Below are positions 24,507 to 29,716 of a stretch of DNA of 64,000 nt, one piece after another. Position numbers and translations under genes: made by a program. The first letter of the stretch is position 1. Each line of letters starts with the position of its first letter. Source of the stretch: an uncultured Oscillospiraceae bacterium (GTDB lineage: Bacteria > Bacillota > Clostridia > Oscillospirales > Oscillospiraceae). Under the pieces are notes generated by a model. That model worked only from the letters and a program-made list of their open reading frames with translations. It ran no database searches and was not told the DNA's origin. The stretch is taken from contig CANQMW010000002.1 in assembly GCA_947625045.1 (NCBI GenBank), positions 62,001 through 126,000 of the forward strand. Reading direction: 5' to 3'.

Positions 24507-25122
24507 GCGCATGCGCCTATGTGGCTATGGCACGGGCCAGTACGAGGAAAAGCGCTCCCGGTTCATCGGGGAGATATTCCCCGTGTCCGGCGAGGACGAA
24601 GCCCGGGAGAATCTCGCGAAGGTCAAAAAGAAATACCCCGACGCCCGGCACCACTGCTGGGCCTGGGTCATGCCCGACGGGGCATGCCGCTGGTCCGACG
24701 ACGGGGAGCCCGGCGGCACCGCGGGCGGGCCCATGGCGGCGGTGCTGAAGGGCGCGGATGTCTACGGCGCGCTGTGCGTGGTAACGCGGTACTTCGGCGG
24801 CACCCTTTTGGGCAGCGGCGGGCTGGTGCGGGCCTATTCCAAGGCGGCGAGCCTGGCCCTGGCCGACGCCGGCACCGAGCCGGACCCGGAGACGCAGCTT
24901 TTGACCATCGCCTGCCCCTGGGACAGCGTGGACCGGGTACACCGGCTCATCCGGGAGTATGAGGGGGAGCTCACGGACAGCGACTATGCCTCCGACCCGG
25001 AGCGGGCCCGCCTCACCGTGCGGCTTTTGGCTGACCGGGCGGAGGAATTGGCCCGGCGGGTCACCGACGCCACCGGCGGGCGGGGGATGGCGGCGCTGCA
25101 GGGACAGGAAGGGATTTCGTAA
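24499..25122 (+). CDS. yigZ: YigZ/IMPACT (UPF0029) family protein
   Basis: A 207-residue protein of the YigZ/YvyE family. The N-terminal UPF0029 domain has EKRSRFIGEIFPV, ARHHCWAWVMPDG, DDGEPGGTAGGPM and RYFGGTLLGSGGLVRAYSKA, and a C-terminal DUF1949 ferredoxin-like domain follows. Eukaryotic relatives (IMPACT) bind Gcn1; the bacterial role is unsettled. It overlaps hflX by eight bases. Its last codons overlap the first operator-like repeat of the peptide cassette (25120-25150). Confidence 0.93.
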   Translation: MGERMRLCGYGTGQYEEKRSRFIGEIFPVSGEDEARENLAKVKKKYPDARHHCWAWVMPDGACRWSDDGEPGGTAGGPMAAVLKGADVYGALCVVTRYFGGTLLGSGGLVRAYSKAASLALADAGTEPDPETQLLTIACPWDSVDRVHRLIREYEGELTDSDYASDPERARLTVRLLADRAEELARRVTDATGGRGMAALQGQEGIS

Positions 25123-25190
25123 AAGTCAGGTTTGGTTACCAAAATGTCAGGGCCGGCGCGTTGAAGGCGCCGACCCTGACATGTTAAAAT
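25120..25190 (+). promoter_or_regulatory. Peptide-cassette promoter A with 21-bp-spaced direct repeats
   Basis: TAAAAGTCAG (GTCAG at 25125-25129) and AAAATGTCAG (GTCAG at 25146-25150) are direct repeats exactly 21 bp apart. Ten bases later comes TTGAAG (25161-25166), then an 18-base spacer and TAAAAT (25185-25190). The same layout recurs at 26611-26680. Two direct repeats two helix turns apart, just upstream of a weak -35, is the typical layout for LytTR-type response regulators of bacteriocin genes. A dyad GTCAGGG...CCCTGAC (25146-25180) overlaps the -35. Confidence 0.65.
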
Positions 25191-25309
25191 CTTAAAGGAA
25201 AAATTTTCGTTCCGGCTGGCCCTTTTGGCCCGGTGGAACGTATAAAGAGACAGTGAGACGACGCGAAGCGCGTTTCAAATAGAAAAGCATGAAAGAGGAG
25301 GAGCATCCA

Positions 25310-25612
25310 ATGAACGAGGAAATGATCGCGAAGCTGAAAAAGGCGAAGTCCGCGGAGGACGTCATCGCCATCGCGAAGGAGTACGGCAAGGAGCTGGCGC
25401 TGGAGCAGGCCAAGGCCCTGCTGGACCGGGTGAAGGGCGCCGAGCTGTCCGACGACGCCCTGGGCGCCGTCGCCGGAGGGAGCATCCACGATGCCCGCGT
25501 CCCCGATCCCCGCCGTCTTGGCGATCCCCTCCTTGCGAGCTACTATTTGCGCTCTTCGGCAGCACCGGAACAAACAACAGTAGAGGACGCGGCTGACCCC
25601 CATAACTGGTGA
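25310..25612 (+). CDS. Nif11-like double-glycine precursor peptide A
   Basis: A 100-residue peptide precursor. Residues 1-57 form a leader of the Nif11-like type: MNEEMIAKLKKAKSAEDVIA, then IAKEYGKELALEQAKALLDR, ending ELSDDALGAVAGG, the usual double-glycine cleavage site. The start (25310) follows AGAGGAGGAGCATCCA. The remaining 43 residues are charged and end DPHNW. Shifting by one base at the GGAGGGAGC junction instead gives a 33-residue core (ASTMPASPIPAVLAIPSLRA...) with stronger GC bias at third positions, so a frameshift at the leader/core border is possible. It faces a 290 aa protein gene across a shared terminator. A near-duplicate gene lies at 26805-27047. No transporter or known maturation enzyme is in the window. 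Confidence 0.8.
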   Translation: MNEEMIAKLKKAKSAEDVIAIAKEYGKELALEQAKALLDRVKGAELSDDALGAVAGGSIHDARVPDPRRLGDPLLASYYLRSSAAPEQTTVEDAADPHNW

Positions 25613-25619
25613 AAAGCGG

Positions 25620-25647
25620 CGCGGCCCCCTCAGACGAGGGGGCCGCG
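25620..25647. terminator. Shared terminator between peptide A and its convergent partner
   Basis: CGCGGCCCCCT-CAGACG-AGGGGGCCGCG, lying eight bases after the peptide stop and three bases after the stop of the minus-strand gene. Confidence 0.8.
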
Positions 25648-25650
25648 TCC

Positions 25651-26523
25651 TTACGTCTCCCGATAATAGAAATTCATCGTCAGCCGGTCCCGGCCGTCCA
25701 GGGCCAGGGCCAGGATGGGGCAATAAAACCGGGGATGGGCGTCGTCCCAGGCCATCAGCTCCCCGATCTGCCGGAGCAGCCGGGGGTCCTGTTCCCTCCC
25801 GAACGCCTCCGCCAGGCCTTGGTAGAGGAATATCGGACCGGTGATGTAAATTTTATATTTCCGCTCCCCGGTGAGCCAGTAGTCCGTCCCCACCATGCAC
25901 ACGTCTCCGCCGCAGCAGCCCAGCACGTCCCGGACCAGGGGGCAGAGGCGCTCTATGGCGGGTATGCCGCTCTGCGCCAGCCAGGTCAGGAAGTAGCCGC
26001 TGTCGTAGCGGCCCAGCCGCGACGGCGTGGAGACGTCCTTATGCCGGCGGCAGAGATAGTGGTATTTCAGGGCGGTGACCCGGTCGTCCTCAGAGACGAA
26101 GCCCAGAAAGTGCATGCCGGCCAGGGGAAACGCCCGCGCGTCGCATATGGGCATGGCGGCCAGGGTCCTGATCTCGCTCTCCCGCCGGGAAAATATGCCG
26201 AAGTGGTCCCTCAGCCAGACGAAGAGGGCCTCCATATTCTCGTTGGTGCGTCTTTTGAGGCTGATGTCATAGCGGTACCGCCGGCGGCCGCCGGTGTCCT
26301 CCGCCAGGGTCAGGAAGCGGATCATGTCCCGTTCCCGGAGAAGGCCGAGGAGAGAGGACGGCCGCCCCTCGCTGAGAGTGCGGGTGTAGTCATCCTTATA
26401 GTAGAGCTTGACGAGCGGCTCTTCCCCGCCGAGGTTGACGCCCAGATAATCCACCCGCTTTTGGGCATAGTCCTCACTGTGCCGGGCTATGAAATCGTCC
26501 AGTTTCTCTGACCAGTCCGCCAT
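25651..26523 (-). CDS. Cassette protein A (290 aa), unknown; possible ABBA-like fold
   Basis: I do not recognise a family with confidence. The soluble 290-residue protein begins MADWSEKLDDFIARHSEDYA. It shows repeated beta hairpins separated by helices, each ending in a similar short motif: KLYYK (39-43), RYRYD (82-86), KYHYL (153-157), KYKIY (222-226) and NFYYRE (284-289). This repetition with Lys/Asn and Tyr at strand ends loosely recalls ABBA prenyltransferases (DMATS, cyanobactin F enzymes), in which such residues hold the prenyl diphosphate. That is a hypothesis only. Its paralog at 27364-28230 is roughly 70 percent identical by eye. Convergence with a Nif11-like peptide in both copies suggests it acts on, or protects against, the peptide. 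Promoter at 26559-26587. Confidence 0.75.
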   Translation of the reverse strand: MADWSEKLDDFIARHSEDYAQKRVDYLGVNLGGEEPLVKLYYKDDYTRTLSEGRPSSLLGLLRERDMIRFLTLAEDTGGRRRYRYDISLKRRTNENMEALFVWLRDHFGIFSRRESEIRTLAAMPICDARAFPLAGMHFLGFVSEDDRVTALKYHYLCRRHKDVSTPSRLGRYDSGYFLTWLAQSGIPAIERLCPLVRDVLGCCGGDVCMVGTDYWLTGERKYKIYITGPIFLYQGLAEAFGREQDPRLLRQIGELMAWDDAHPRFYCPILALALDGRDRLTMNFYYRET

Positions 26524-26558
26524 GAGAGCACCGCCTTTCCATGAATAGAACTGCCCCT

Positions 26559-26587
26559 ACCTTAAAGTTTTCCGCCCGGTCTGTCAA
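26559..26587 (-). promoter_or_regulatory. Promoter of cassette protein A
   Basis: On the minus strand TTGACA (26582-26587), 17-base spacer, TAAGGT (26559-26564). The same element precedes cassette protein B at 28262-28290. Confidence 0.7.
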
Positions 26588-26610
26588 TGGCGCGGGGTGG
26601 GGGGATTTCG

Positions 26611-26680
26611 TAAAAGTCAGGTTTGATTCCGAAAACGTCAGAACCTGCGGATTGAAGATACCAGCGCGGCGTGATAAAGT
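26611..26680 (+). promoter_or_regulatory. Peptide-cassette promoter B with 21-bp-spaced direct repeats
   Basis: GTCAG cores at 26616-26620 and 26637-26641 (21 bp apart) in TAAAAGTCAG and AAAACGTCAG, ten bases, TTGAAG (26652-26657), 17-base spacer, TAAAGT (26675-26680). A 24-bp stretch (26602-26625 region) is identical to 25111-25134, including the last codons of yigZ, which marks the left end of the duplicated unit. Confidence 0.68.
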
Positions 26681-26804
26681 TAAATAAGCGAAATACGAAA
26701 GGTTTTGGCCCTTTTGGCCGGCCGGAACGTATAAAGAGACGGAGCACGCAATGGGGAGACGACGCGAAGCGCGTTTCAAATACATTTTAAGAAGGAGACA
26801 CACC

Positions 26805-27047
26805 ATGAACGAGAAAATGCTGAAAGAGCTCCTGGGGGGGGGTAAGACTCCTGAAGAAGTGGTCGCCATCGCGAAGGAGCACGGCAAGGAACTGACCTTG
26901 GAGCAGGCGCAGGCCCTGTTGGACCGGGTGAAGAACTCCGTGACCGGCGAACTGTCCGAAGACGACCTGGAGGCTGTCGCCGGGGGCGTCCAAGGTGCCG
27001 TTGACGTTGTCAAGGAATGGATGGGCTCCACCTTTTTTGGAGTGTAA
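26805..27047 (+). CDS. Nif11-like double-glycine precursor peptide B
   Basis: An 80-residue precursor paralogous to peptide A. The 61-residue leader runs MNEKMLKELLGGGKTPEEVV, then AIAKEHGKELTLEQAQALLD, ending ELSEDDLEAVAGG. The core after the double glycine is only 19 residues, VQGAVDVVKEWMGSTFFGV, hydrophobic and aromatic with no Cys. The start follows GAAGGAGACACACC. The leader is better conserved with peptide A than the core, the normal pattern for ribosomally made peptides. Its 5' untranslated region shares several blocks with that of peptide A. It converges on cassette protein B, with a MITE-like repeat in between. Confidence 0.82.
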   Translation: MNEKMLKELLGGGKTPEEVVAIAKEHGKELTLEQAQALLDRVKNSVTGELSEDDLEAVAGGVQGAVDVVKEWMGSTFFGV

Positions 27048-27056
27048 TTCCAAACT

Positions 27057-27096
27057 ATGACAAGGGGCTGCCGCATCCGCGGCAGCTCCTTGTCAT
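27057..27096 (+). terminator. Terminator-like hairpin after peptide B
   Basis: ATGACAAGG-G-GCTGCCGC-ATCC-GCGGCAGC-T-CCTTGTCAT: a long stem of about 17 bp, ten bases after the peptide stop. No clear T-run. Confidence 0.65.
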
Positions 27097-27102
27097 ATGA
27101 TA

Positions 27103-27330
27103 TGCCTCCCCTGTGCAAGGGGAGGTGGGCGGCGATAGCCGCTCGGAGGGGTTGTAAAACGACAATCCCTCAGTCACCTCGTTGGAGCACGCGCTGCCAG
27201 GTCTCCCTTTGCCGCAAGCGGCAAAGCTCGAATGGCCCGCGGCTCCTCCTCTCCCCACGCGACCCGCTTGCGCTGGGCTCGCGTGGGGGCCCCGTCGGCG
27301 GCGACAGCCCCCTTTACACAAGGGGGCCCT
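27103..27330 (+). repeat. Enlarged MITE-like repeat with internal insertion
   Basis: Left arm GCCTCCCCTGTGCAAGGGGA, GGAGGGGTTGT and AATCCCTCAGTCA are present, but the right part is expanded. A truncated right arm (27204-27213) is followed by about 90 bases that include GCCGCAAGCGGC and CCCACGCGA...TCGCGTGGG-like dyads. The right arm then resumes as CCCCCTTTACACAAGGGGGC. It fills most of the 316-base gap between peptide B and cassette protein B. Confidence 0.75.
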
Positions 27331-27363
27331 CCAAGCAGAGCTCCCCCGACTGGGAGAGCATCC

Positions 27364-28230
27364 TTATGTCTCCCGGTAATAGAAATTGATGGTCAGCCGG
27401 TCCTGGTCGTCCAGGGCCAGGGCCAGACCCACGCAGTAAAACCGGCGGCGGGCGTCGTCCCAGGCCATCAGCTCTTCGAGCTGCCGGAGCAGCCGGGGGT
27501 CCTGTTCCTTCCCGAACACCTCTGCCAGACCCTGGTAGAGGAACACCGGGTCGATGACGTAAATTTTGTACTTTCGCTCCCCGGTGAGCCAGTAGTCCGT
27601 CCCCGCCATGAACACGTGCCCGCCGCAGCGGCCGAGCACGTCCCGGACCAGGGGGCAGAGGCGCTGAAAGACGGGTATGCCGCTTTGCTCCAGACAGGAC
27701 AGATAGTAGTCGTCGGGGAAATGGCCCCGCAGGGAGGAGAGGTCCTTCTGCATCCAGCAGAGATAGTGGCATTTCAGGGCGGTGACCTGGCCGGCCTGGT
27801 CGATGAAGCCCAGAAAGTGCATGGCGGCCAGACGGAATTCCTCCTCACTGTATACCCGCATAGCGGCCAGCTTTCTGATTTCGTCCTCCCGCTGGGAGAA
27901 CACGGCGACGTGTTCCTTCAGCCAGGCGAAAAGTACCTCCATGTTCTCGTCAGTGCGGCGTTTAAGGCCGATGTCATAGCGGAACCGCTGGCAGTCGCCC
28001 GTGTCCTCCGCCAGGGTGAGAAAGTTTATCATATCCCGCTCCCGCAGAAGGTCAATGAGGGAAGATTGCCGTCCCTCGCTGCGGGCGCTGGTATAGTCAT
28101 TTTTGTAGTATATCTTGAACAGCGGTTCTTCTCCGCCGATATTGACGCCCAGATAATCCACCCGCTTTTGGGCATAGTCCTCGCTGTGTTGTGCCACGAA
28201 TCCGTCCAGTTTCTCATGCCAGTCCGCCAT
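27364..28230 (-). CDS. Cassette protein B (288 aa), paralog of cassette protein A
   Basis: A 288-residue paralog of the 25651-26523 product. The best conserved parts are EDYAQKRVDYLGVN at the start, LLRERDMI, FLTLAEDTG, the strand-end motifs KIYYK, RFRYD and KYKIY, GTDYWLTGE, FLYQGLAE, EQDPRLLRQ and the C-terminal RLTINFYYRET. Differences cluster at residues 112-175. The upstream region, including TTGACA-17-TAAAGT and GAGAGCACCGCCTTTCCAT, is also conserved with copy A, so gene and promoter were duplicated together. Function is unknown; see copy A for the ABBA-like speculation. Confidence 0.75.
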   Translation of the reverse strand: MADWHEKLDGFVAQHSEDYAQKRVDYLGVNIGGEEPLFKIYYKNDYTSARSEGRQSSLIDLLRERDMINFLTLAEDTGDCQRFRYDIGLKRRTDENMEVLFAWLKEHVAVFSQREDEIRKLAAMRVYSEEEFRLAAMHFLGFIDQAGQVTALKCHYLCWMQKDLSSLRGHFPDDYYLSCLEQSGIPVFQRLCPLVRDVLGRCGGHVFMAGTDYWLTGERKYKIYVIDPVFLYQGLAEVFGKEQDPRLLRQLEELMAWDDARRRFYCVGLALALDDQDRLTINFYYRET

Positions 28231-28261
28231 GAGAGCACCGCCTTTCCATAGAGCTTATCCT

Positions 28262-28290
28262 ACTTTAAAGCCCTCTGCCCCGTCTGTCAA
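28262..28290 (-). promoter_or_regulatory. Promoter of cassette protein B
   Basis: On the minus strand TTGACA (28285-28290), 17-base spacer, TAAAGT (28262-28267). Confidence 0.72.
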
Positions 28291-28312
28291 CCGTGCGGTG
28301 GCAGACATCACG

Positions 28313-28343
28313 TAAACGTCAGGTTTGACCGCGAAAACGTCAG
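28313..28343. promoter_or_regulatory. Third copy of the 21-bp-spaced direct repeat, without peptide gene
   Basis: TAAACGTCAG (GTCAG 28318-28322) and AAAACGTCAG (GTCAG 28339-28343), 21 bp apart, with GGTTTGACC between them as in the other two copies. The TTGAAG/TAAA promoter and precursor gene do not follow; AT-rich sequence and a terminator do. It looks like the remnant right boundary of the tandem array. Confidence 0.65.
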
Positions 28344-28405
28344 GGAGAACATAAAAAATATTTTTTCAAAAGAAAAAGGGAAAAAGCAAAAATGCGGCGT
28401 ATAAG

Positions 28406-28437
28406 GGTATTGCAAAGTGATTTGCGATACCTTTTTT
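28406..28437 (+). terminator. Rho-independent terminator upstream of dgt
   Basis: GGTATTGCAAA-GTGA-TTTGCGATACC followed by TTTTTT. It closes the accessory island and would stop read-through into dgt, or act as an attenuator in the dgt leader. Confidence 0.8.
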
Positions 28438-28450
28438 ACATATCGGGGGT

Positions 28451-29458
28451 ATGGTCATGCCCAGCTTTCGGGAGATACGCCAGCAGCAGGAGGCGCTGAT
28501 CATCGGGCCCTATGGGACGCTTTCCGTGAACAGCAGGGGCCGGCCCGTGCCGGAGCCGGAGGACGAGGTGCGCACCTGCTTCCAGCGGGACGTGGACCGG
28601 GTGACTCACTCCAAGGCCTTCCGCCGTCTGCGCCATAAGACCCAGGTGTTCCTGCGGCCCGAGGGGGACCACTACCGCACCCGCCTGACCCATACCCTGG
28701 AGGTGGCCCGCATCGCCCGGACCATCGCCCGGGCACTGGCCCTCAACGAGGACCTGACCGAGGCCATCGCCCTGGGCCACGACCTGGGCCATACCCCCTT
28801 CGGCCACGCCGGGGAGCGGGCCCTGCGGGACATCACAGGGGGCTTTCACCACTACGAGCAGAGCCTGCGGGTAGTGGACAAGCTGGAGAAGGAGGGCCAG
28901 GGCCTCAATCTCTGCCAGGAGACCCGCATGGGCATCCTGAACCACACCACCGGCGCGCCCAAGGATACCGTGGAGGCGGACGTGGTGCGCCTGGCGGACC
29001 ATATCGCCTATCTGAACCACGACCTGGACGACGCGGAGCGGGCGGGCATCGTGCTGGCCACGGACGTGCCCCTCATCATCCGCACCCGGGTGGGCACCCG
29101 CAACTCCCAGCGCATCAACGCCATGGTCACGGACGCCATCGTGTCCAGCGGCCAGGGCAGGGTGGGGTTCTCCCCGGATATGGAGGAGGCCTATAAGGCC
29201 TTCGAGGAGTTCATGTACGCCGCGGTGTACCACAACCCCACCGCCAAGGGGGAGGAGTCCAAGGTGAAGGGCATCCTGGGGCCCATCATGGAGTACTACG
29301 GCAAGTGCCCGGACAAGCTGCCCGCGGAGTACCGGGCCATCGCCGATAAAGAGGGCGTGGGCGTGGCCGTGACGGACTATGTGTCCGGCATGACCGACAG
29401 CTTCGCCATCTATACGTTTGAGGACCTGTTCATCCCGGCCAGCTGGTCGGTGAAGTAA
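28451..29458 (+). CDS. dgt: dGTP triphosphohydrolase-like HD protein
   Basis: A 335-residue HD-domain enzyme that cleaves dNTPs to nucleosides and triphosphate. It has the N-terminal FRRLRHKTQVFL and RTRLTHTLEVARIAR (metal His), then the HD pair in GHDLGHTPFGHAGE (His/Asp about 110-111), and a later VRLADHIAYLNHDLDDA with the last metal aspartate. It is the short bacterial form. The usual Firmicute order dgt-dnaG-rpoD is kept here, with a repeat between dgt and dnaG. ATG at 28451 or 28457. Confidence 0.94.
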   Translation: MVMPSFREIRQQQEALIIGPYGTLSVNSRGRPVPEPEDEVRTCFQRDVDRVTHSKAFRRLRHKTQVFLRPEGDHYRTRLTHTLEVARIARTIARALALNEDLTEAIALGHDLGHTPFGHAGERALRDITGGFHHYEQSLRVVDKLEKEGQGLNLCQETRMGILNHTTGAPKDTVEADVVRLADHIAYLNHDLDDAERAGIVLATDVPLIIRTRVGTRNSQRINAMVTDAIVSSGQGRVGFSPDMEEAYKAFEEFMYAAVYHNPTAKGEESKVKGILGPIMEYYGKCPDKLPAEYRAIADKEGVGVAVTDYVSGMTDSFAIYTFEDLFIPASWSVK

Positions 29459-29568: not shown

Positions 29569-29685
29569 AAAAGCCTCCCCTGTGCAAGGGGAGGGGGACC
29601 GCACGAAGTGCGGTGGAGGGGTTGTCAGACAATCCCCCAGTCAGCGCTTGCGCGCTGCCAGCCCCCTTTGCACAAGGGGGCCTTA
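29569..29685 (+). repeat. MITE-like intergenic repeat
   Basis: Compact full copy with left arm GCCTCCCCTGTGCAAGGGGA, hairpin GACCGCACGAAGTGCGGT, GGAGGGGTTGTCAGAC, CAATCCCCCAGTCA, hairpin GCGCTTGCGCGC and right arm CCCCCTTTGCACAAGGGGGCC. The preceding 29459-29568 contains no gene that I can support. Confidence 0.9.
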
Positions 29686-29716
29686 TGAGAAGAAATAAAA
29701 AAGGAGGTGACCGCGG

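Follow-up and report, generated by a model that had tools for sequence, protein, structure and literature searches.

A duplicated cassette of Nif11-type precursor peptides and predicted ABBA-fold prenyltransferases in an uncultured Oscillospiraceae bacterium

The peptide prenyltransferases covered in the accessible part of a 2026 review are the eukaryotic, the cyanobactin and the trans-IDS-like ones (PMC13290415). According to the available text of two further reports, MppC, a cyanobacterial enzyme of the ABBA (alpha-beta-beta-alpha) type, geranylates a core Trp and requires a Nif11-like leader (PMC12715784), and PalQ from Paenibacillus, a relative of isoprene synthases, modifies an NHLP precursor at its C-terminal Trp (PMC10853753). 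The NHLP and Nif11 leader families and the exporter families were defined by Haft in 2010 (PMC2887384, in its accessible part). Here, we describe a 64-kb stretch of DNA from an uncultured Oscillospiraceae bacterium (GenBank assembly GCA_947625045.1, contig CANQMW010000002.1, positions 62,001 to 126,000; the whole stretch is henceforth the window), which carries a duplicated cassette of two Nif11-type precursor genes (P0003 and P0004), each facing a convergent gene for a protein of about 290 residues (P0001 and P0002). We consider it likely that the cassette belongs to a system of prenylated RiPPs (ribosomally synthesized and post-translationally modified peptides), with P0001 and P0002 prenylating the peptides.

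The closest counterpart is the MppC/MppE pair of Moorena producens, compared here by its description in the accessible part of PMC12715784 rather than by sequence: a soluble ABBA-type prenyltransferase and a precursor with a Nif11-like leader are common to both, and core Trp, the acceptor in MppE, is also the acceptor that we propose. Different from that system, which belongs to a cyanobacterium and in which a LanM macrocyclises the core beforehand, 24 of our 26 distinct Nif11 cores (those of P0003 and P0004 included) lack Cys, the related bins are gut Oscillospiraceae, and an idi gene is linked. With the cyanobactin F-family (KgpF, PagF, PatF and LimF), the P0001 family shares a length of about 290 residues and a predicted fold matching their crystal structures; however, those enzymes act leader-free on processed cores (available text of PMC12715784), and no prenyltransferase sequence model matches the P0001 family. 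PalQ/PalX of Paenibacillus alvei and ComQ/ComX of Bacillus are likewise cases of RiPP Trp prenylation in Bacillota, and PalX, with its NHLP leader and conserved C-terminal Trp, resembles the P0003 type (PMC10853753, accessible part), but PalQ and ComQ belong to the isoprene-synthase superfamily, whereas an ABBA barrel is predicted for the P0001 family. Finally, the leader family and the TIGR03796/TIGR03797 exporter are those of the Nif11 (N11P) systems with NHLM, in which the known tailoring is of the TOMM (thiazole/oxazole-modified microcin) or lanthionine type, the text of PMC2887384 not containing the term 'prenyl'; here, the exporter is on another contig. Among the entries listed in literature searches outside which most subscription papers fell, we found no Nif11-leader RiPP that is prenylated, be it in Firmicutes, in Oscillospiraceae or in gut bacteria, no ABBA peptide prenyltransferase in gut Firmicutes and no phase-variable bacteriocin or precursor genes of this kind. 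The kind of system, a prenylated RiPP with an ABBA enzyme and a Nif11 leader, is thus already known, while the sequence family, the host, the absence of cyclisation signs, the linked idi and the slippery leader look new.

Searches with the P0001 family against Pfam, NCBIfam, PHROGs and PADLOC, and against PDB sequences by single-sequence and profile methods, gave only chance-level matches or none, and no prenyltransferase model of Pfam or NCBIfam matched P0001 or its nine aligned relatives (10 members) at E values up to 10; viral contigs encode no relative. The description of the family as unrecognised in a first-pass annotation of this DNA therefore holds for these sequence collections, but not for predicted structure. 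AlphaFold models of two members (P0001 and the protein of locus L048; L, G and C mark our handles for loci, genomes and contigs) show five alpha-beta-beta-alpha units closing into a ten-strand barrel, and the matches listed by Foldseek against PDB and by VIA-align are all prenyltransferases, aromatic or peptide. A search of viral structures returned two matches with E of at most 0.001, without a name and with TM (template modelling) scores of 0.37 and 0.42. In known ABBA enzymes, basic and tyrosine residues lining the barrel bind the diphosphate; in the P0001 family, Lys, Arg, Tyr and His are invariant at alternating positions on the second strands and are kept down to 47% identity. On these models, an ABBA (PT-barrel) prenyltransferase fold is very probable, which makes specific the earlier guess of a modifying enzyme.

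The family is rare. It was found in 1 of 391 genomes sampled from the class (the window's own), in 3 of 400 sampled from the taxonomic family, all of one genus, and in 6 of 35 genomes of the genus. All 10 intact copies adjoin Nif11 precursors (two each in G000, G216 and G811, three in G793 and one in G803), as do both broken copies (G294 and G803), so that the family is not one that is widespread without nearby peptide genes. Precursors of this type occur in 8 of the 35 genus genomes, including all six with the enzyme, and in L048 idi is followed by a precursor, the enzyme and another precursor, all read in the same direction.

The leaders match Nif11 profiles and not a non-peptide protein family: P0003 and P0004 score 27.1 and 25.0 bits with Pfam PF07862 (threshold, 23.8) and, with 25.7 and 31.9 bits, both fall just short of the cut-off of the NCBIfam leader model TIGR03798 (32.3). 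Both contain V-A-G-G, and the G-G, invariant across 13 aligned precursors, is the predicted cleavage site. Among the 26 distinct cores, collected by script over all loci and partly homologous to one another, 23 have one Trp, one has two and two have none, in varied contexts (C-terminal ...DPxNW, EWxGSLFGK, DWGYVDEQ, NQWKPE and others); the leaders of the 13 aligned precursors lack Trp. Per residue, Trp makes up 3.7% of the Nif11 cores versus 2.4% of the 72 short-leader double-glycine cores of the same loci, 67 of which contain Cys and 25 of which have no Trp. We regard Trp as the acceptor residue with moderate confidence. A lanthipeptide reading was rejected because the cores lack Cys, as counted above; inspection by eye showed no LanM next to these loci, where no profile search for it was made. 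We also rejected the idea that Trp marks only the enzyme-adjacent precursors: in a hand count of 31 full precursors (five fragments left out), core Trp is present in 14 of 14 adjacent to the enzyme and in 14 of 17 others, so that the enzyme works in trans unless Trp is there for some different reason. These observations bear on an alternative in which the ABBA-fold enzymes prenylate an aromatic small molecule (indole, tryptophan, a phenol or a quinone) and the peptide genes are neighbours by way of a shared mobile or regulatory cassette. The best structural matches, which are indole and aromatic enzymes (CdpNPT, AtaPT and DMATS), and the seemingly separate promoters of P0001 and P0002 would fit it. 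Yet the intact copies keep to Nif11 precursors at several genomic sites and in several orientations, no other small-molecule biosynthetic gene recurs, by eye, in the neighbour gene lists, and Trp is constant in the adjacent cores, if not exclusive to them; we judge this explanation improbable.

The proposed donor, dimethylallyl diphosphate (DMAPP), is made by type I isopentenyl diphosphate (IPP) isomerase, the predicted product of idi. Within the 35 congeneric genomes, idi matches with E below 1e-20 occur in exactly the six that bear the enzyme, a further match in G813 being weak (E of 8e-5, 37% identity over residues 39 to 96); at the same threshold, idi is present in 10 of the 397 remaining genomes of the family sample. 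IPP isomerase is the best NCBIfam model for all six proteins scanned, for which Pfam gives NUDIX. Four of them pass TIGR02150 (109.2, 108.8, 115.2 and 113.3, with a cut-off of 105.8), two miss it (that of the window's genome with 105.6 and another with 101.8), and none passes NF002995 (cut-off, 127). The seven idi loci all lie among double-glycine-peptide or exporter genes: five adjoin Nif11 precursors (G000 C23, G216 C23, G294 C13, G803 C59 and G803 C21), and two (G793 and G811) are downstream of an NHLM exporter with short-leader peptides. An eighth match (G294 C28) has the letters with which the C13 piece begins and was counted as the same gene, cut by contig ends. The linkage matters for the possibility that the barrel was kept while catalysis was lost, the proteins serving the peptides as immunity factor, chaperone or receptor. 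Immunity genes may be laid out in this way, convergent and with a separate promoter, and the absence of a family match agrees with this possibility; against it stand the invariant basic and tyrosine residues of the second strands, the exact co-occurrence of idi with the enzyme and two subgroup members that are codirectional with the precursor, which leave it very unlikely. As separate observations, a protein of 420 to 432 residues, condensation/acyltransferase-like by eye, lies between NHLM peptides and idi in two genomes (L108:5799-7097 and L109:3936-5198), and one of the same type lies near a Nif11 precursor in the window's genome (L027:2476-3774). After idi on C23, a leftover piece of a precursor 5' untranslated region (UTR; L025:12427-12472) is followed by a gene that by eye is serine-recombinase-like, as if the precursor/enzyme cassette had been lost or displaced there.

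As for export, an NHLM ABC1 and ABC2 pair is encoded on contig C34, outside the window, and is followed by short-leader peptides (TIGR03796, 952.9 versus 853.3 bits; TIGR03797, 751.1 versus 709.4 bits); TIGR03796 is over its cut-off in 13 of the 35 genus genomes and in none of 14 control genomes. The earlier interpretation stands in part: its link to a modifying enzyme is supported, whereas its statement that no known exporter is present is wrong at genome scale and its statement that no such system has been described is too strong in view of MppC (PMC12715784, accessible part). The exporter, together with LytTR control, recalls class II bacteriocin regulons, and it could be argued that NHLM exports the Nif11 peptides without any modification, as class II bacteriocins or signals, the enzyme and idi being incidental. 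Trp is absent from two of the 26 cores, one of which, SIRNPRFAMAVYV, lies next to a LytTR regulator, and G799 and G327 carry precursors without enzyme or idi. Nevertheless, this explanation would account neither for the exact co-occurrence of idi and enzyme nor for the presence of idi inside precursor or exporter operons, and we find it highly improbable.

Several points weigh against peptide prenylation by the P0001 family. The fold alone does not establish activity, the family is recognized by no sequence model, and the structure models were built from shallow alignments of eight sequences: mean pLDDT (predicted local distance difference test) is only 64.6 and 60.6 in two of the five AlphaFold 2 models of P0001 and 63.9 to 66.6 in four of the five of the L048 protein, and the Foldseek TM scores are about 0.4 to 0.6. 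On a tree of RpoD from 30 of the 35 genus genomes, the enzyme requires only two changes, falling on two clades, so that the co-occurrence represents at most two independent events and not six; G799, sister to one of these clades, and G327 have Nif11 precursors, but neither enzyme nor idi was found in them. The idi of the window's genome is on another contig, and its product lies 0.2 and 2.8 bits below two NCBIfam cut-offs. Core Trp, as said, is also common in non-adjacent precursors, no NHLM transporter over the cut-off was found by profile search in G294 and G803, and the seven related loci of named origin all derive from metagenome bins.

For peptide prenylation, we propose the following mechanism. 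P0001 and P0002 would be soluble ABBA prenyltransferases of a new sequence family, using an allylic diphosphate, most simply DMAPP from the linked type I IPP isomerase, and putting the prenyl group on the core of the Nif11-type precursor, most likely at its single Trp. The helical leader would probably be recognized by the enzyme, in analogy to MppC, and the C39 peptidase of the NHLM transporter would cut after Gly-Gly and export the prenylated linear peptide in trans. LytTR-type repeats 10 bp upstream of TTGAAG-like promoters may define a regulon that comprises idi, a LytTR response regulator and the precursors, replication slippage at the poly-G tract of P0004-type genes could reversibly switch individual precursors on and off, and the products might act as bacteriocins or as ComX-like signals. 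Taken as a whole, this picture of a phase-variable, LytTR-controlled arsenal of linear Trp-prenylated peptides in gut Clostridia, in which a non-cyanobacterial, leader-dependent ABBA enzyme modifies Nif11 precursors that are not cyclised, with a dedicated IPP isomerase supplying the donor from within the regulon, export in trans and a function as ComX-like signals or bacteriocins, is possible but tentative. If true, it would add to the ComQ/PalQ fold a second enzyme fold for Trp prenylation of ribosomal peptides in Bacillota, place lipidated peptides in mammalian gut bacteria and provide a prenylation system that bears a leader, apparently does without cyclisation and has two natural pairs of enzyme and precursor in one genome; idi inside precursor or exporter operons would be a genomic marker for seeking further such systems, and a slippery poly-G in a RiPP leader would vary which peptides the cell makes.

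The regulatory part of the proposal starts from the direct repeat of GTCAG units, which matches nine times in the genome (up to three mismatches, two matches overlapping) versus none for a backwards control pattern. The comparison covered 20 occurrences of the repeat, located in the window and in ten further loci, several of which are orthologous; a copy on C15 that overlaps another was left aside, as were some weaker and additional sites (e.g., L047, L096 and L098). At 15 of the 20, exactly 10 bp separate the repeat from the start of a TTGANN box, which a TAAAAT-like box follows 17 to 18 bp on, although at 2 of these 15 another promoter pair scores equally; at one site the box is at 9 bp, and four dgt-side sites have no TTGA box, the one in L046 showing a weak TTCAAA pair at the 10-bp distance. 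The third repeat of the window has no TTGAAG box after it towards dgt. Since single promoter scores are often not above those of shuffled sequences (P up to 0.47 among 16), the weight rests on the constant spacing between repeat and promoter. Genes behind such sites include precursors, idi (L098) and the LytTR regulator, and on contig C61 a LytTR response regulator with the same repeat upstream adjoins a Nif11 precursor. The 10-bp geometry and the 12-bp gap of the repeats agree with the description of LytTR sites in the accessible part of PMC6193735, which suggests, by spacing and geometry, that they are LytTR regulon sites. The GGAACGTATAAAGAGAC element was dropped as a -10 region, being 83 to 87 bp after the repeat at seven loci (the window twice, L042, L044, L045, L046 and L098; farther in L048, L093 and L028), with a better promoter at 10 bp. 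In two genomes, an identical 13-residue Nif11 core, SIRNPRFAMAVYV, belongs to precursors (L028:1547-1780, minus strand; L093:9340-9573, plus strand) adjoining a LytTR response regulator whose promoter bears the same repeats, the regulator frame in L093 looking truncated; this precursor is a candidate autoinducing peptide. In L030, L029 and L043, genes of the AIM24 and sodium:dicarboxylate-symporter families (by Pfam) and MATE-like and lipoprotein genes (by eye) are likewise preceded by LytTR-type repeats at the same distance from the promoter.

The leader of P0004 contains the only run of at least seven G or C in the window, in frame at codons 10 to 13. Across ten P0004-type gene copies in six genomes, the run is 7 to 10 G long and in frame in three (P0004, G216 C3 and G216 C23); the seven out-of-frame copies (G000 C45, G216 C5, G793 C9, G793 C4, G811 C36, G803 C21 and G799 C68) keep the downstream leader and core open. 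From the sequences, phase variation of P0004-type precursors appears reasonably likely. For this tract only, the out-of-frame copies could instead be dead genes or assembly errors: 7 of 10 copies are out of frame, the sequences come from metagenome bins, whose poly-G lengths could include assembly error, and constraint, expressed by nonsynonymous (dN) and synonymous (dS) divergence, is weak for G803/G799 (dS 0.221, dN 0.155; dN/dS 0.70) and for the in-frame copies compared with G793 C9 (dS 0.259, dN 0.186, ratio 0.72; dS 0.212, dN 0.181, ratio 0.85). It is, however, clear in other pairs, dN/dS being 0 to 0.36 in three of four out-of-frame pairs (C45/C5, dS 0.326 and dN 0.073; C45/G793 C4, dS 0.738 and dN 0.262; G793 C4/G811 C36, five synonymous and zero nonsynonymous differences), and this constraint, the open frames and the singularity of the G run within the window make dead or erroneous copies rather unlikely.

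The layout of the window itself is given in Table 1. The genes follow the order yigZ, precursor A (P0003), P0001 (minus strand), precursor B (P0004), P0002 (minus strand), dgt, where the names of the two outer genes were assigned by eye. The two units, of about 1.5 to 1.7 kb, are 87% and 75% alike in 300-nt blocks, successive direct repeats being spaced by 1,491 and 1,702 bp, and P0001 (290 residues) and P0002 (288 residues) are 71% identical. The plan drawn by the first-pass annotation was confirmed as an observation, including the 21-bp-spaced repeats, the double-glycine precursors with unlike cores (43 and 19 residues after Gly-Gly), the terminator-like hairpins between convergent genes and the TTGACA promoter of each 288- to 290-residue protein. 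Its structured leader needs qualification: a 27-nt UTR block identical in both units folds into a small hairpin, but the 91-nt 5' leader of unit 1 is no more structured than shuffled sequences (z of -0.40). In unit 1, the one that was folded, a significant hairpin (z of -6.7) lies farther upstream and overlaps the promoter. A scan of positions 24900 to 28600 against Rfam gave no match up to an E value of 0.1.

Table 1. Features of the duplicated cassette (positions in the window)
Feature	Positions	Strand	Basis
LytTR-type direct repeat 1 (GTCAG units 21 bp apart)	25119..25150	+	Pattern search
Candidate promoter of precursor 1, TTGAAG-18-TAAAAT, 10 bp after repeat; score ties with another pair	25161..25190	+	Promoter scoring
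Conserved 35-bp 5' element (...GGAACGTATAAAGAGAC), common to double-glycine peptide loci	25217..25251	+	Sequence comparison
Nif11-type precursor A (P0003, 100 aa; core 43 aa, end ...TVEDAADPHNW)	25310..25612	+	Pfam/NCBIfam profiles, alignment
Strong hairpin, terminator-like, between convergent genes	25618..25648	.	Folding z -6.2
ABBA-fold prenyltransferase-like protein 1 (P0001, 290 aa)	25651..26523	-	AlphaFold model and Foldseek
Candidate promoter of P0001 gene, TTGACA-17-TAAGGT	26556..26587	-	Pattern taken from second promoter
LytTR-type direct repeat 2	26610..26641	+	Pattern search
Candidate promoter of precursor 2, TTGAAG-17-TAAAGT, 10 bp after repeat	26652..26680	+	Promoter scoring
Second copy of 35-bp 5' element	26706..26740	+	Sequence comparison
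Nif11-type precursor B (P0004, 80 aa; core 19 aa, one Trp)	26805..27047	+	Pfam/NCBIfam profiles
Run of nine G in leader codons	26834..26842	+	Homopolymer search of window
Strong hairpin, terminator-like, between convergent genes	27056..27097	.	Folding z -9.1
ABBA-fold prenyltransferase-like protein 2 (P0002, 288 aa)	27364..28230	-	Fold inferred from 71% identity to P0001
Candidate promoter of P0002 gene, TTGACA-17-TAAAGT	28259..28290	-	Source of search pattern
LytTR-type direct repeat 3, reversed relative to P0002 gene, about 27 bp upstream of P0002 promoter	28312..28343	+	Pattern search

Short G+C-rich elements (CCTCCCCTGTGCAAGGGGAGG and similar) repeat between genes of the window (27104-27133, 27298-27339, 29573-29602 and 29652-29693) and resemble a small dispersed repeat. 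The short-leader double-glycine peptides form a large dispersed family in the window's own genome and its relatives (L025, L029, L032 to L037, L096, L108 and L109); many of their cores are by eye zinc-ribbon-like (CxxC...CPxC), and many of their genes stand behind the GGAACGTATAAAGAGAC element. Directly upstream of double-glycine peptide genes, there are also very large lipoproteins of about 1,600 to 2,200 residues, Sel1-repeat-like by eye (L025:5108-10051, L029:307-6786 and L036:6947-12427).

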